64,000 nt of DNA from Solwaraspora sp. WMMA2065 (GTDB lineage: Bacteria; Actinomycetota; Actinomycetes; Mycobacteriales; Micromonosporaceae), in NCBI RefSeq assembly GCF_030345075.1, contig NZ_CP128361.1, forward strand, positions 1,178,001 to 1,242,000, read 5' to 3'. Below are positions 23,076 through 27,791 of the stretch, in pieces (positions within the stretch are counted from its first letter, which is position 1; the number at the start of each line of letters is the position of its first letter). Below the pieces are notes generated by a model. That model had not been told where the DNA came from, did no database searches, and saw only the letters and a program-made list of their open reading frames with translations. A program made the translations under genes and the position numbers.

Positions 23076-23615
23076 ATGCCATCATCACCCACCGAGATTC
23101 TGCTGCCGCACCGACCCACCGATACGCCTCTCCCGGTAGCGGTCACTGACAGCGAGCAGCTCAGTCTGTTCGTCGCGTTGAGGGCGGTACCCGATCCGCG
23201 TGACCCGCGTGGCCGCCGCTACCCCCTGGTCAGCGTGCTCGCGGTCGCGGTGTGCGCGGTGCTGGCCGGGGCGTGCACGTTCGCCGCGATCGCCGACTGG
23301 GTACGCGACCTCGACCGCGCCGCGTGGGCGAGGCTCGGGTTCACCGATCGGGTCCCCGCCGCGACCACGGTGTGGCGACTGTTGATCCGCATCGACGCGC
23401 AAACGCTGTCGGCGGTACTGGCCCGCTGGCTGCGGGCACGCACCACACCGGACGGCGGGACCGGACGGCGGTGGCGCATCGTCATCGCCGTCGACGGCAA
23501 GGTCGTACGCGGTGCCCGGCTCCCCGACGGACGTCAGGTCCATCTGCTGTCGGCCTACGACACCAGCACCGGCATCGTGCTCGCCCAGGTCCAGATCGCC
23601 ACGAAATCGAACGAG
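23076..23615 (+). pseudogene. ISAs1-family transposase, N-terminal part (cut by IS110)
   Basis: The first 180 residues show the ISAs1 N-terminal accessory domain (LSLFVALRAVPDPRDPRGRR, LVSVLAVAVCAVLAGACTF) and the start of the DDE domain (IVIAVDGKVVRGARLPDGRQ, first Asp; LLSAYDTSTGIVLAQVQIA). At KSNE (23604-23615) the sequence changes to an IS110 element, and the transposase resumes at 25251. The ATG at 23076 is the likely original start. Confidence 0.88.
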
Positions 23616-23624
23616 TCACCCTGT

Positions 23625-23810
23625 GCCGAGCACGCCGCTATGGCGTGAAAAACTGCGGTACGGTCGCCCGCCGACGCCGATGGGATCTTGGCACTTGAAG
23701 CCGTTAACGAGTCTGGCGCGGGGCCCGACCTCGATGGGTCGCACACTGTTGCTTCGAGCACGCCGGTCAGATTTCTTGGTTCCCGACCGTGGCCCACGGG
23801 CGACCTCCCA
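23625..23810 (+). ncRNA. Candidate bridge RNA of the IS110 element
   Basis: The noncoding left part has the order expected of an IS110 bridge RNA. A perfect 6-bp hairpin CACGCC-GCTAT-GGCGTG lies at 23631-23647. AACGAG (23706-23711) equals the left target plus core (23610-23615), and CGCGGGG (23717-23723) is the reverse complement of the right target CCCCGCG. CCGGTCAG (23763-23770) equals the element's right end plus core (25245-25252). GGGCGA (23798-23803) pairs at 5 of 6 positions with the left end. This gives a target loop first and a donor loop second, as in IS621. The RNA ends and folding are inferred. Confidence 0.6.
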
Positions 23811-23840
23811 CCCCCTTCTGCCCGTATGGAGCCCGGTGGC

Positions 23841-25160
23841 ATGTCACGAGAACCTGAAGAGATCCACGACCCCGACCATGAGATCCGGTTGAGCCGGGTC
23901 GCGGCCATCGACGTCGCGAAGGCATCCGGCAAGGTCTGTACCCGGCTACCGCATCCGACTCAGCCTCACCGCAGGGTGACGCTGGTCTGGGACGTCGTGT
24001 CCACCAACGAGCTCTGCGCCTTGGCCCAGCGGTTGGTCACCGATCAGATCGAACGTGTCGTTCTGGAGTCGACCGGCGACTACTGGCGACCGTTCTACTA
24101 CATCCTGGAAGCCCACGGGGTGACCGTGTGGCTGGTCAACGCCAACGACGTCAAGCAGGTCCCGGGCCGACCCAAGACCGACAAGCTCGACGCGGTCTGG
24201 CTGGCCAAGCTCAACGAGCGTGGGATGCTGCGGCCCTCGTTCGTGCCGCCGAAGGCGATCCGGGACATCCGCGACTACACCCGGCTGCGCCACGACCTCG
24301 TCGCGGACCGGACCCGCTACAAGCTGCGCTTGGACAAGCTGCTGGAAGACGCTTTGATCAAGCTGTCCACGGTGGCTACCAACTTCCTCGGGCTGTCCGG
24401 AAGAGCGATGATCGACGCTCTCGTCGCGGGTGAACGCGATCCCCGCCGACTGGCCGAGCTGGCCCTGGGCAAGCTACGGGTCAAACGTCCCGCTCTGGTT
24501 GAGGCGTTGACCGGCCGTTTCGACGACCATCACGCCACGATCGCTGCCGTCCTGCTGCAGCAGATCGATGCCCTTGACGTCGAGATCGACAAGCTCACCG
24601 TGATCATCGACCAGCTAATCGCCGCACTGCCTCCGACGGGTACTGGTGAGGACTGTCCTCCTGCGGCCCATCAGCCTTCGGTCTTGGAGCGGCTCGACGA
24701 GATCCCTGGTGTCGGACCTCGGGTCGCTCAGATCATCATCGCGGAGACCGGCGGGAACATGGCCCAGTTCCCCACCGCTGGCCACCTGGTGTCCTGGACG
24801 AAACTGTCCCCACGCACCATGCAGTCCGGGTCAAAGACCCGCCGCGGACCCACCGGCCGTGGCAGCCCCTACCTTAAAAGTGTGCTCGGTGACGCCGCCG
24901 CGGCAGCCGCCCGCACCGACACCTTCCTCGGCGAACGCTACCGGCGCCTGGTCAAACGCCGAGGCAAAGCCAGAGCCCTGGTCGCGATCGCCAGATCCAT
25001 CCTGACGATCGTCTGGCACATCCTGGCCGACCCGACCGCTAGCTTCATCGATCTCGGCCCGGACCACTACGCCACCCATATCAACAAGCACCGCAAGACC
25101 CGTAGCCTCATCCGCCAGCTCGAAGCCCTCGGCCACACCGTTCAGCTCAACCCGGCCTGA
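23841..25160 (+). CDS. IS110-family transposase (DEDD recombinase)
   Basis: An RNA-guided DEDD/serine recombinase of ~439 residues. The N-terminal RuvC-like DEDD domain shows VAAIDVAKASGKV (first Asp), VVLESTGDYWRPFYYILE (Glu), VWLVNANDVKQVPGRPKTDK and LDAVWLAKL (Asp pair). The C-terminal Transposase_20 domain has LDEIPGVGPRVAQIIIAETG, HLVSWTKLSPRT, the conserved Ser region (SGSKTRRGPTGRGSPYLKSV) and ALVAIARSILTIVWHIL. ATG at 23841 has GGAG 9 nt upstream; ATG 23826 is an alternative. All key motifs are intact, so it may be active. Confidence 0.93.
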   Translation: MSREPEEIHDPDHEIRLSRVAAIDVAKASGKVCTRLPHPTQPHRRVTLVWDVVSTNELCALAQRLVTDQIERVVLESTGDYWRPFYYILEAHGVTVWLVNANDVKQVPGRPKTDKLDAVWLAKLNERGMLRPSFVPPKAIRDIRDYTRLRHDLVADRTRYKLRLDKLLEDALIKLSTVATNFLGLSGRAMIDALVAGERDPRRLAELALGKLRVKRPALVEALTGRFDDHHATIAAVLLQQIDALDVEIDKLTVIIDQLIAALPPTGTGEDCPPAAHQPSVLERLDEIPGVGPRVAQIIIAETGGNMAQFPTAGHLVSWTKLSPRTMQSGSKTRRGPTGRGSPYLKSVLGDAAAAAARTDTFLGERYRRLVKRRGKARALVAIARSILTIVWHILADPTASFIDLGPDHYATHINKHRKTRSLIRQLEALGHTVQLNPA

Positions 25161-25250
25161 CCAGCACCACACCCAACGGACAAATTCAGAACCTCGTCGG
25201 GGCTGCGCCCCGACGCTGCCGCCTGCCCACTCACGGTTGTTTTTCCGGTC

Positions 25251-25924
25251 AGATCCCCGCGTTCACGCCCCTGCTACGCCTGGTCGCCGCCCAGCTGGGA
25301 TCGCTGACCGACGTCCTGGTCGTCGCGGACGCCCTGCACGCCCAGACCGGACACGCCGAGTACCTGGCCGCCGCCGGCGGACATCTGATGGTCACGGTAA
25401 AAGCCAACCAGCCGACCACATTCGCCCAGCTCAAGACGCTGCCCTGGGCGCAGGTCCCGGTCGGAGCGCGGACCCGCGAGACCGGACACGGCCGCACGGA
25501 GACCCGCACCGTCAAGGCCGTCACCGTGGCGACCCCCGGCGGGCTCGGCTTCCCCCACGCCCAGCAGGCCGTCCGGATCACCCGGACCCGCACGGTCAAG
25601 GGCAGGACCAGCCGCGAAACGGCGTATCTGACCGTGTCCCTTCCCGCCGGAGCAGCCCAACCCGCCGACCTCGGCGCCTGGGCGCGAGCGGAGTGGCATA
25701 TCGAGAACCGCCTGCACTACGTCCGCGACGTGACGTTACGTGAGGATGCCCATCGAGCCCGGACCGGCAACGGTCCCGCCGTCTTCGCCACACTCCGTAA
25801 CACCGCGGTTGGCTACCACCGTGCCAACGGCGAACCCAACATCGCCCGCGCCACCCGACGCGCGAACCGACGCTCCACAGACCTCATCGACGCCGTGACC
25901 AGCAGTAATCCGACTACGCAATAG
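25251..25924 (+). pseudogene. ISAs1-family transposase, C-terminal part
   Basis: Continues the interrupted gene: IPAFTPLLRLVAAQLGSLTDVL, VVADALHAQTGHAEYL (second Asp), HLMVTVKANQPTTF and the C-terminal ARAEWHIENRLHYVRDVTLRED (catalytic Glu) followed by ALRNTAVGYHRANG-type residues. The stop TAG is at 25922-25924. Joined with 23076-23615 it would give an intact transposase of ~400 residues, so the IS110 insertion is the main lesion. A group II intron begins 2 nt after the stop. Confidence 0.88.
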
Positions 25925-26510
25925 CGTGTGCCACGAACGAGGAATGGTGATCGCGATGTAGGAGCGATGTCAGGAATCGATGCTGTGCAGGAGATGAAGG
26001 TTTGGCCCTTCGGAGTCGCCTTTCGGGAGGAGGCTTCAAACCACCACATGCTGCGTTGGCTGAAGACCGTCGTGGTGAGCGATGTGGAAAAGGCGCCGTG
26101 AGAGGTGTCAGGTAGGGACCAGGAAGATGAGTGAAACCGAACCGCTGTTGACGTGTCGTTACGTTTTAGGTGGCATCAGAACCGTGGTCCTTGCTGTTGG
26201 CTGCGGGATGAGTCTGGCGGGTGCCCGATGACTGGCCAGGCGGTGCTCGGCATGGAGGCGGCATGAGCCTGGTCTGCGGCTTCTGCATGGAACGTGGGAA
26301 GGCGTGTCTCGATACCGCCCCGGGTAGCCGGGCGAGAGGGAGTAGCCGAGCGGGATGTGCCCGCGAGGTGTGAGTACCGATGCGAGACGCGCTGGCGGAC
26401 CGGCCCGTAGTAGTGACGAAGCCCTGGTAATCGGGGTGGAGCGAAGGGGCCGGGCCATCCGCAGTTGGTTCGTCTGGTCAACCAGAACGCATAACGGTCT
26501 GGGAGGAACT

Positions 26511-27791
26511 GTGAGGAGCGAGCTGACATTGTCAGAGAAACCGTTAGAGATTTCAAAGTGGGAAGTCTGGGAAGCGTACGAAAGAGTCAAGGCGAACAAG
26601 GGAGCACCCGGAGTCGACGACGTCAGCTTGGGGGAGTTCGAGAAGGATCTGAAAGGAAATCTGTACAAGATCTGGAATCGGATGTCCTCGGGCAGTTACT
26701 TCCCGCCTCCGGTGAAAGCGGTGCGGATACCGAAACCGCAGGGTGGGGTCAGAACACTCGGTGTGCCCACTGTGGGTGACCGGGTGGCGCAGACCGTGGT
26801 GGCCCGCAGGATCGAGGAGAAGGTCGAACCGATCTTCCACCCCGACTCCTACGGCTACCGGCCGCGACGGTCGGCGCTGGACGCGGTAGCGGCATGCCGG
26901 CAACGGTGCTGGCGCTACGACTGGGTCGTCGATCTGGACGTCCAGGCGTTCTTCGACAGCGTCGACCACGACCTCATGATCAAAGCGGTGGAGGCGAACA
27001 CCGACCTGCCGTGGGTACTGCTGTACGTCAAACGGTGGCTCATCGCCCCGATGCAGCAGCCCGACGGTAGCCTGCAACCCCGAGACCGGGGAACCCCGCA
27101 AGGGTCCGCGGTCTCACCCGTGCTGGCGAACCTGTTCCTGCACTACGCGTTCGACACCTGGATGGCCCGGACGTTCCCGTCCGTGCCGTTCGAACGCTAC
27201 GCCGACGACGCGGTGGTGCACTGCGCCAGCGAACGCCAGGCGTACCTGGTGCGCCAGGCGATCGAGGACAGGATGGTCGAGGTCGGGCTGCGCCTGCACC
27301 CGGACAAGACCAGGATCGTGTACTGCAAGGACACCAACCGGCGAGGCGCCCATCCGGACACCTCGTTCACGTTCCTCGGGTACACGTTCCGTCCTCGCGG
27401 GGCCAAAGATCGTCGAGGGGACGTGTTCACCGCGTTCCTCCCGGCGGTCAGCAAGGACGCTCTCAAAAGACTCAGCCGTACCGTCCGGCGATGGCAGATC
27501 CACCGCCGGTTGGACCTCAGCTGGGCCGAACTCGCCGAGATGATCAACCCCGTCGTACGCGGGTGGATGAGCTACTACGGGCGGTTCTACCGCTCCGAGC
27601 TCAACACTCTCCTGGCGCGCATCAACTCCTACCTGGTGCGTTGGATCCGCAAGAAGTACCGGCGGCTACGACCCCGACGCAAGGCCCGAGTCGTGTGGGA
27701 ACGCATCATCGCGCAACACCCGCGCTACTTCGCGCACTGGGCCTGGGTCCGTAACCCTCTGATGATGGCCAGGGTGGTACGAGCGGAGTGA
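26511..27791 (+). CDS. ltrA: Group II intron-encoded reverse transcriptase/maturase
   Basis: Makes cDNA of the intron at its target and helps splicing. RT motifs in order: NKGAPGVDDV, RIPKPQGGVRTLGVPTVGDR, PDSYGYRPRRSALDAV, VVDLDVQAFFDSVDHDLM, RGTPQGSAVSPVLANLFLHY, RYADDAVVHC (catalytic YADD), VGLRLHPDKTRIV, FTFLGYTFRPR; the maturase (X) domain has INPVVRGWMSYYGRFYRSEL. No HNH endonuclease domain. GTG at 26511 follows GGGAGGA; the frame is open further upstream. The TGA stop (27789-27791) lies inside domain V, so the coding and ribozyme sequences overlap. Confidence 0.92.
   Translation: MRSELTLSEKPLEISKWEVWEAYERVKANKGAPGVDDVSLGEFEKDLKGNLYKIWNRMSSGSYFPPPVKAVRIPKPQGGVRTLGVPTVGDRVAQTVVARRIEEKVEPIFHPDSYGYRPRRSALDAVAACRQRCWRYDWVVDLDVQAFFDSVDHDLMIKAVEANTDLPWVLLYVKRWLIAPMQQPDGSLQPRDRGTPQGSAVSPVLANLFLHYAFDTWMARTFPSVPFERYADDAVVHCASERQAYLVRQAIEDRMVEVGLRLHPDKTRIVYCKDTNRRGAHPDTSFTFLGYTFRPRGAKDRRGDVFTAFLPAVSKDALKRLSRTVRRWQIHRRLDLSWAELAEMINPVVRGWMSYYGRFYRSELNTLLARINSYLVRWIRKKYRRLRPRRKARVVWERIIAQHPRYFAHWAWVRNPLMMARVVRAE

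Follow-up and report, generated by a model that had tools for sequence, protein, structure and literature searches.

The insertion sequences closest to the element described here belong to the IS110 and IS1111 groups, for which bridge RNAs were predicted in 85.7% of IS110s and 93.0% of IS1111s (Durrant et al, 2024; PMC11208160). In IS621, the left-target guide is described as 5′ of the right-target guide (PMC11208160), the recombinase residues D11, E60, D102, D105, and S241 are reported as essential by mutation, and the handshake guides, which adjoin RTG and RDG, pair after exchange with DNA that is not their cognate (PMC11208158). In IS1111 elements, the noncoding region usually lies downstream of the gene, the ends carry subterminal inverted repeats (PMC11187229) of 7–17 bp (PMC11208160), and the target matches of their seekRNAs are in reverse order with respect to those of IS110 seekRNAs (Siddiquee et al, 2024; PMC11187229).

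Here, we describe an IS110 element found in a stretch of 64,000 nucleotides, hereafter the window, of Solwaraspora sp. WMMA2065 (contig NZ_CP128361.1, positions 1,178,001–1,242,000), whose genome is a single contig of 6,743,220 bases. A bridge RNA was to be expected in this element because of the large share of IS110s for which one has been predicted.

Materials and Methods

Relatives of the recombinase were collected from genome contigs (18 loci), from seven genomes of the genus, four of which matched, from 354 of the family (29 matching at E 1e-90), and from draws of 397 genomes of the order (22 matching) and 394 of the class (7 at E 1e-100). Some genomes belong to more than one of these sets, and that of the window is among them. 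Duplicates were merged, and two copies with short upstream DNA as well as matches beginning past residue 30 were excluded; 105 element copies were kept, with 80 distinct noncoding segments among them. Right ends were set by a fixed motif, independently of any guide match. One copy without an anchor, 34 without a recognised right end, and two without a readable right target were set aside, leaving 68 insertions, which gave 43 guide classes, defined as distinct target-guide pairs. The left-target boundary was placed by the match to the left-target guide (T3), a bias that inflates the scan value of T3 and the identity of left footprints.

In the permutation test, the guide of each class was scored against its own DNA and against the DNA of the other classes, with 10,000 permutations. 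Chance occurrence of motifs was estimated by resampling the 225-nt noncoding left part 20,000 times with a first-order Markov model. RNAalifold was run on 32 of 41 representatives; the other nine, which were divergent or aligned oddly, were omitted. IS621 loci were located with a sequence query.

Results

An IS110 element with an intact recombinase gene within a transposase gene

The recombinase ORF (Table 1) matches PF01548 with 87.7 bits (cut-off 29) and PF02371 with 67 bits (cut-off 21.3). Its residues D24, E76, D114, D117, and S329 stand in invariant columns of an alignment with IS621, in which the first four match D11, E60, D102, and D105 of IS621, and S329 is aligned with S241. The protein is thus predicted to hold what marks the IS110 family, a DEDD RuvC-like domain and a C-terminal Tnp domain with a catalytic serine. 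The initial annotation had called the recombinase gene intact and the noncoding left part 225 nt long, and both statements agree with our reading: the ORF spans all 439 residues with both domains above cut-off, and the noncoding flanks of the gene measure 225 nt upstream (23,616–23,840) and 92 nt downstream (25,161–25,252). The longer noncoding side is upstream of the recombinase gene, as in the IS110 group, and the RNA-like region is on that side too, not downstream as in the IS1111 group.

The element had been described as lying inside an ISAs1 gene and ending at 25,254. The first point was borne out, as the two flanks match DDE-transposase families (PF13808 and PF01609) and join into one frame of 403 codons whose only stop is terminal, with KSNE|IPAF spanning the site; we take this interrupted gene to be of the ISAs1 type. 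The second was corrected by two bases, since an in-frame empty site was obtained only when the element ends at 25,252, with AG the only sequence common to both junctions. The end motif at this right end is common to relatives, and the core at the right end is AG in 40 of the 43 guide classes, AA in two, and TG in one. Compared as empty sites, other ISAs1-type gene copies in the genome gave just short weak DNA matches, and it is the reading frame on which the empty site depends. As to close copies, one 95% twin (L045) turned up among the 354 genomes of the family, and the seven of the genus had none besides the copy in the window. The twin lies at KTNE|ISRF and a 47% relative (L092) at KTNE|ITRF of other ISAs1-type genes; one conserved protein motif is therefore the target of three insertions.

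Table 1. Features of the IS110 element and its insertion site, in window coordinates.
Feature	Position	Strand	Remarks
ISAs1-type transposase gene, 5′ part	23076..23615	+	PF13808
Left target AACG, adjoining core	23610..23613	+	codons of K-S-N-E, ISAs1-type gene
Core AG, left junction	23614..23615	+	second copy 25251-25252
IS110 element without left core copy	23616..25252	+	1637 nt including right core AG; junctions read directly
5′ hairpin CACGCC/GGCGTG	23631..23647	+	6 bp, 23631-23636/23642-23647; similar hairpins visible in relatives
Closing stem, predicted 5′ arm GGTCGCCCG	23662..23670	+	pairs with 23797-23805; helix 1, both-side changes in 6/10 pairs
Target-loop outer stem, predicted 5′ arm	23671..23678	+	helix 2, both-side changes in 3/7 pairs, 96.9% of cells paired
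Predicted right-target guide T5, GGGATCT	23682..23688	+	reverse complement of core AG + ATCCC; 5′ side of target loop
Target-loop inner hairpin TTGGC...GCCG	23688..23703	+	helix 3, both-side changes in 2/3 pairs, 86.5% of cells paired
Predicted left-target guide T3, AACGAG	23706..23711	+	left target + core; 3′ side of target loop
Dinucleotide TC after T3	23712..23713	+	identical to bases 1-2 of the left end
Target-loop outer stem, predicted 3′ arm	23715..23722	+	contains most of CGCGGGG 23717-23723; without target covariation
Predicted donor guide D5, CCGGTCAG	23763..23770	+	right end + core; 5′ side of donor loop
Dinucleotide AT after D5	23771..23772	+	equals first two bases of right target
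Closing stem, predicted 3′ arm CGGGCGACC	23797..23805	+	holds GGGCGA, earlier candidate for a fourth guide, unsupported
IS110 recombinase, 439 aa	23841..25160	+	catalytic D24 E76 D114 D117, S329 aligned with IS621
Right target ATCCCCG	25253..25259	+	junction reading
ISAs1-type transposase gene, 3′ part	25253..25924	+	PF01609

Several features of the neighbourhood and of the relatives were noted along with these results. Downstream of the interrupted gene (region from about 25,925), the window encodes a group II intron reverse transcriptase/maturase (RVT_1, GIIM; 26,355–27,791), and the intron RNA may start directly after the stop codon of the ISAs1-type gene. The same genome carries a 52% identical paralogue (L009; G000:C1:4473985), which shares its guides with L061, L062, and L084, and these four elements sit at DIMGK|AHALLEEI-like codons of a gene that is presumably an IS3-type OrfA. 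The target guides of this group also occur in L028, which lies in an unrelated gene with a poor right target. A third recombinase relative in the genome (L008; G000:C1:4522348-4523082) is decayed and partial, with one TGA. At L090 and L137 (G199:C2, about 1149500-1157200), head-to-tail arrays have arisen by insertion of one IS110 at the right end of the next, and the tandem copies L052/L076 (G174:C1:4951400-4957500) have an extra base between the right end and the next left core. Sequence of the element's right end is duplicated at the right junction of L122 and L107, and L053, which matches strongly on both sides of the target, shows a core-like TG at the left junction and AG at the right one.

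The left end is predicted to form a conserved structured RNA

The consensus fold (31 pairs) had a closing stem, a target loop with its outer stem and inner hairpin, and three more helices. Both-side changes occurred at 14 pairs against 9.3 in shuffles, 94.4% of cells could pair against 89.2%, and the covariation score was 0.298 against 0.203, with 0 of 500 shuffles reaching the observed value in each case. In a slid-partner control, 36.6–47.3% were paired. T5 and T3 each occupy an unpaired side of the target loop, the last base of T5 (23,688) being shared with the first base of the inner hairpin, and the donor loop is less well defined in the consensus structure. Folded singly, the window RNA did not outperform its shuffles (z 0.19 over 225 nt and z 1.30 over 181 nt); the evidence for the putative structure is a comparison among relatives. 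It points to a conserved structured RNA with two loops, as expected of a bridge RNA. The initial annotation had proposed a check of the left-end fold by covariance, a perfect 5′ hairpin ahead of the guides, and the order target loop then donor loop; the compensatory changes among relatives, the 6-bp hairpin, and the loop order are all in line with it.

A search of Rfam returned one match, CRISPR-DR29 at 25,184–25,219, which at 29.9 bits stayed below the gathering score of 39 and was taken as chance. It overlaps a GC-rich hairpin near the right end (25,195–25,215), and similar hairpins are visible in several relatives.

Three predicted guides vary together with the DNA they match

We compared the candidate guides of the 43 classes with their own DNA and with that of the other classes. 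T3 scored 6.53 of 7 against its own left flank and 4.80 against others (z 17.2), D5 7.38 and 5.24 of 8 against the right end (z 14.0), and T5 5.01 and 3.63 of 7 when compared with core plus right target in reverse complement (z 10.6, or 8.2 without the core), with 0/10,000 permutations for each of the three. The earlier assignments of AACGAG to left target plus core and of CCGGTCAG to right end plus core are therefore retained. For T5, the signal was seen at all levels of identity to the window protein (below 49.5%, z 6.3, n = 15; 49.5–54%, z 4.9, n = 16; above 54%, z 4.2, n = 12), and a control in which T5 was matched in sense to the left flank gave z 1.0. When all RNA columns were scanned against all target positions in both senses, the right target had its top complementary diagonal on TGGGATC (Stouffer 7.7). 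In the sense direction, the top diagonals placed the left target on T3 (21.0, a value inflated by the T3-placed boundary) and the right end on D5 (16.9). The own target was best or tied-best in 34/43 classes for T3, 40/43 for D5, and 16/43 for T5, the T5 match being modest, with an own score of 3–4 of 7 in 15 of the 43 classes. Chance occurrence in the Markov resamples was 3.3% for AACGAG, 0.3% for CCGGTCAG, and 1.0% for GGGATCT. These comparisons support GGGATCT, 5′ of the left-target guide, as the right-target guide, and the first loop accordingly matches both target sides and covaries with them, as is characteristic of bridge RNAs.

Among copies with the same guides inserted elsewhere, left-target positions −7 to −1 were identical in 0.87–1.00 of 31 pairs and in 0.42–0.65 beyond, figures subject to the bias of the T3-placed boundary, and right-target positions +1 to +6 were identical in 0.47–0.68 of 34 pairs and in 0.24–0.59 beyond. 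Because same-guide copies share the left target more than the right one, the left target appears to be the stronger determinant. The initial annotation had anticipated that other copies would be found at related targets, and the twin at the same ISAs1-type codons and the left target shared by same-guide copies are both compatible with this.

Handshake-like bases and the donor loop

The bases that follow T3 and D5 vary with the DNA across the junctions. The two bases after T3 matched the left end with 1.78 for own and 1.13 for other classes (z 8.5, 0/10,000; both bases match in 35/40 classes). After D5, the next two bases matched the right target with 1.06 and 0.69 (z 4.7, 0/10,000; both match in 16/43 classes and neither in 12/43). 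In the window, T3 with its next two bases reads AACGAGTC, which is the left junction, and D5 with its next two bases reads CCGGTCAGAT, which is the right junction. Controls taken two bases further gave z 1.2 after T3 (1232/10,000) and a slightly raised z 1.8 after D5 (347/10,000), and IS621-style handshake bases after T5 gave z −1.3. According to the mechanism that we propose, the two bases after T3 would pair with the incoming left end after exchange, and those after D5 with the incoming right target.

In the donor loop, the left-donor guide D5 covaries, and the candidate right-donor guide found no such support (z −0.3). GGGCGA, put forward earlier as a fourth guide on a 5-of-6 match, had to be abandoned as such: it sits in the 3′ arm of the closing stem, and the best stretch in the 15–46 nt after D5 scored 4.04 of 7 against its own left end and 4.07 against others. 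A scan for any complementary stretch reached at most Stouffer 4.2, away from the core, and was taken as background. The polarity assigned to the donor loop depends on one guide, D5.

That no right-donor guide was found here could also fit a short seekRNA reading nothing but the target, in which case D5 would be DNA or mRNA leader that resembles the right end for some other reason, such as autoregulation; in assays of ISEc11 and ISEc21, short target-reading seekRNAs were indeed sufficient (Siddiquee et al, 2024; PMC11187229). However, D5 tracks the right end base by base, including the core, and the two bases after it track the right target, which only a recombined junction would explain. We therefore regard this possibility as improbable, and favour a bridge RNA that reads both target and donor.

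Changed guide letters are followed by the element's own DNA

The elements are related, and some guide classes have targets in common, so that the matches between guides, ends, and targets might reflect shared descent instead of base-pairing. Against this, in 21 disjoint pairs of nearest classes (proteins 56–100% identical), changed guide letters were tracked by the element's own DNA. At differing positions, own and crossed matches were 110 vs 3 for T3 (60 positions), 26 vs 0 for D5 (13 positions), and 65 vs 18 for T5 (55 positions; with the register fixed in either of two ways, 48 vs 18 and 44 vs 18). The handshake-like bases behaved in the same way (11 vs 1 at 6 positions after T3, 14 vs 1 at 9 positions after D5), and control stretches gave no signal. 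Shared descent is thus a very improbable explanation, and the comparison among relatives bears out the three predicted guides, their order, the structure, and the handshake-like covariation.

The initial annotation had read CGCGGGG (23,717–23,723) as the right-target guide. The motif is present and equals the reverse complement of right-target bases 3–9, but a guide role did not survive the comparison. It scored 4.44 against its own target and 4.36 against others (z 0.9; 1830/10,000 permutations), its own target was best or tied-best in 2 of the 43 classes, own and crossed matches in nearest pairs were 14/16, 10/15, and 10/12 in three registers, and it arose in 6.8% of the Markov resamples. 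An IS621-like order, with AACGAG followed by CGCGGGG and both loops of equal polarity, is scarcely credible, since this stretch is near-constant among relatives with differing targets, forms part of a conserved stem arm with compensatory changes, and is identical in the RNA of the twin L045, which is the same as that of the window element, yet the right target of the twin is ATCAGCCGG.

Discussion

Of the bridge-RNA-like left end first proposed for this element, the covariation between guides and DNA and the compensatory structure stand, whereas the position of the right-target guide was revised and the fourth guide dropped. With high confidence, we propose that this is an insertion sequence of the IS110 group whose left end encodes a predicted bridge RNA in which the target loop is permuted with respect to IS621 and the donor loop is not, and in which handshake-like bases follow the left-target and donor guides. 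In IS621, each loop pairs with the bottom strand through its 5′ side; with the right-target guide 5′ of the left-target guide and a donor loop as in IS621, the two loops here would therefore be of opposite polarity. Read on the strand with the CT core, the handshake bases would adjoin the right-side guides as they do in IS621, and the chemistry of IS621 may for this reason be kept. We infer that the RNA is transcribed and bound by the recombinase, and that exchange begins with the bottom strand, as defined in the frame of the element.

The arrangement may reach beyond the relatives compared above. ISArsp3 and other long-recombinase IS110s have 44% identical recombinases and diverged guides and targets, and in two of them (L146 and L152), read by eye, the right-target guide again seems to precede the left-target guide, with a donor guide as in the window element. 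For six distinct non-actinobacterial elements, too, the reading was by eye and not by permutation. The match between D5 and the right end covers 8/8 bases in L147, L153, L154/L155, L157/L158, and L159, and 7/8 in L156, and T3 matches at least five bases of the left target with the core in 6/6. For T5, seven bases match in L156, six in L158, five with a two-base shift in L155, and four plus a wobble in L159; by eye, no match was seen in L147, and L153, a tandem copy, was left out of this judgement. As judged by eye, the right-target-guide-first order probably recurs in some relatives from Pseudomonadota and Bacillota. It seems rather likely, although we hold this with less assurance than the reading of the element itself, that a large subgroup of long-recombinase IS110s, in at least Actinomycetota, Pseudomonadota, and Bacillota, has loops of opposite polarity, handshake bases beside the left-target and left-donor guides, and the bottom strand (element frame) exchanged first. 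This would be a second bridge-RNA architecture, in which a loop can be circularly permuted without loss of function.

Applying the IS621 order to IS110s of this kind would program the wrong bases, as happened in the first reading of this element, and the corrected guide map gives a direct retargeting design for a set of long-recombinase bridge systems. The handshake-like covariation also makes a sharp prediction of the first-exchanged strand. In a search at title and abstract level, mostly of open-access papers, we found no text describing a reversed target-guide order for IS110s with an upstream RNA. Published drawings, such as Extended Data Fig. 10c, where ISAar29 and five other elements are drawn (Durrant et al, 2024; PMC11208160), may already show it, and the novelty of the guide order is therefore provisional. 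Provisionally, then, the bridge-RNA mechanism is a known one, and the loop arrangement appears to be a variant of it.

The window element and IS621 share an RNA upstream of the recombinase gene and a target loop ahead of the donor loop (PMC11208160, PMC11208158), and they are alike in the 2-base core within the guides, the handshake-like bases, and the aligned DEDD and serine catalytic residues. The recombinases are 23% identical and differ in length, with 439 aa in the window and 326 aa in IS621, and the core in the element frame is mostly AG in elements of the window type and CT in IS621. A further difference concerns the target loop. In IS621, as read in that frame at two E. coli loci, the left-target guide is 5′ and the right-target guide 3′, the 5′ side of each loop pairing with the bottom strand and the 3′ side with the top strand; in the window element, the predicted target guides are in the reverse order, whereas the 5′ side of the donor loop is as in IS621. 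Likewise, the handshake-like bases adjoin the left-target and left-donor guides here, and RTG and RDG in IS621. ISEc21, an element of the IS110 type, resembles the window element in its upstream noncoding RNA and in targeting conserved codons of the transposase of another insertion sequence, but its target guides are in the IS621 order (PMC11187229). The order in the window element is that of the IS1111 type, a comparison confined to the target guides, so a target-guide order that has been reported as an IS1111 trait would also occur in an IS110 with its RNA upstream, which bears on the relationship between the two groups.
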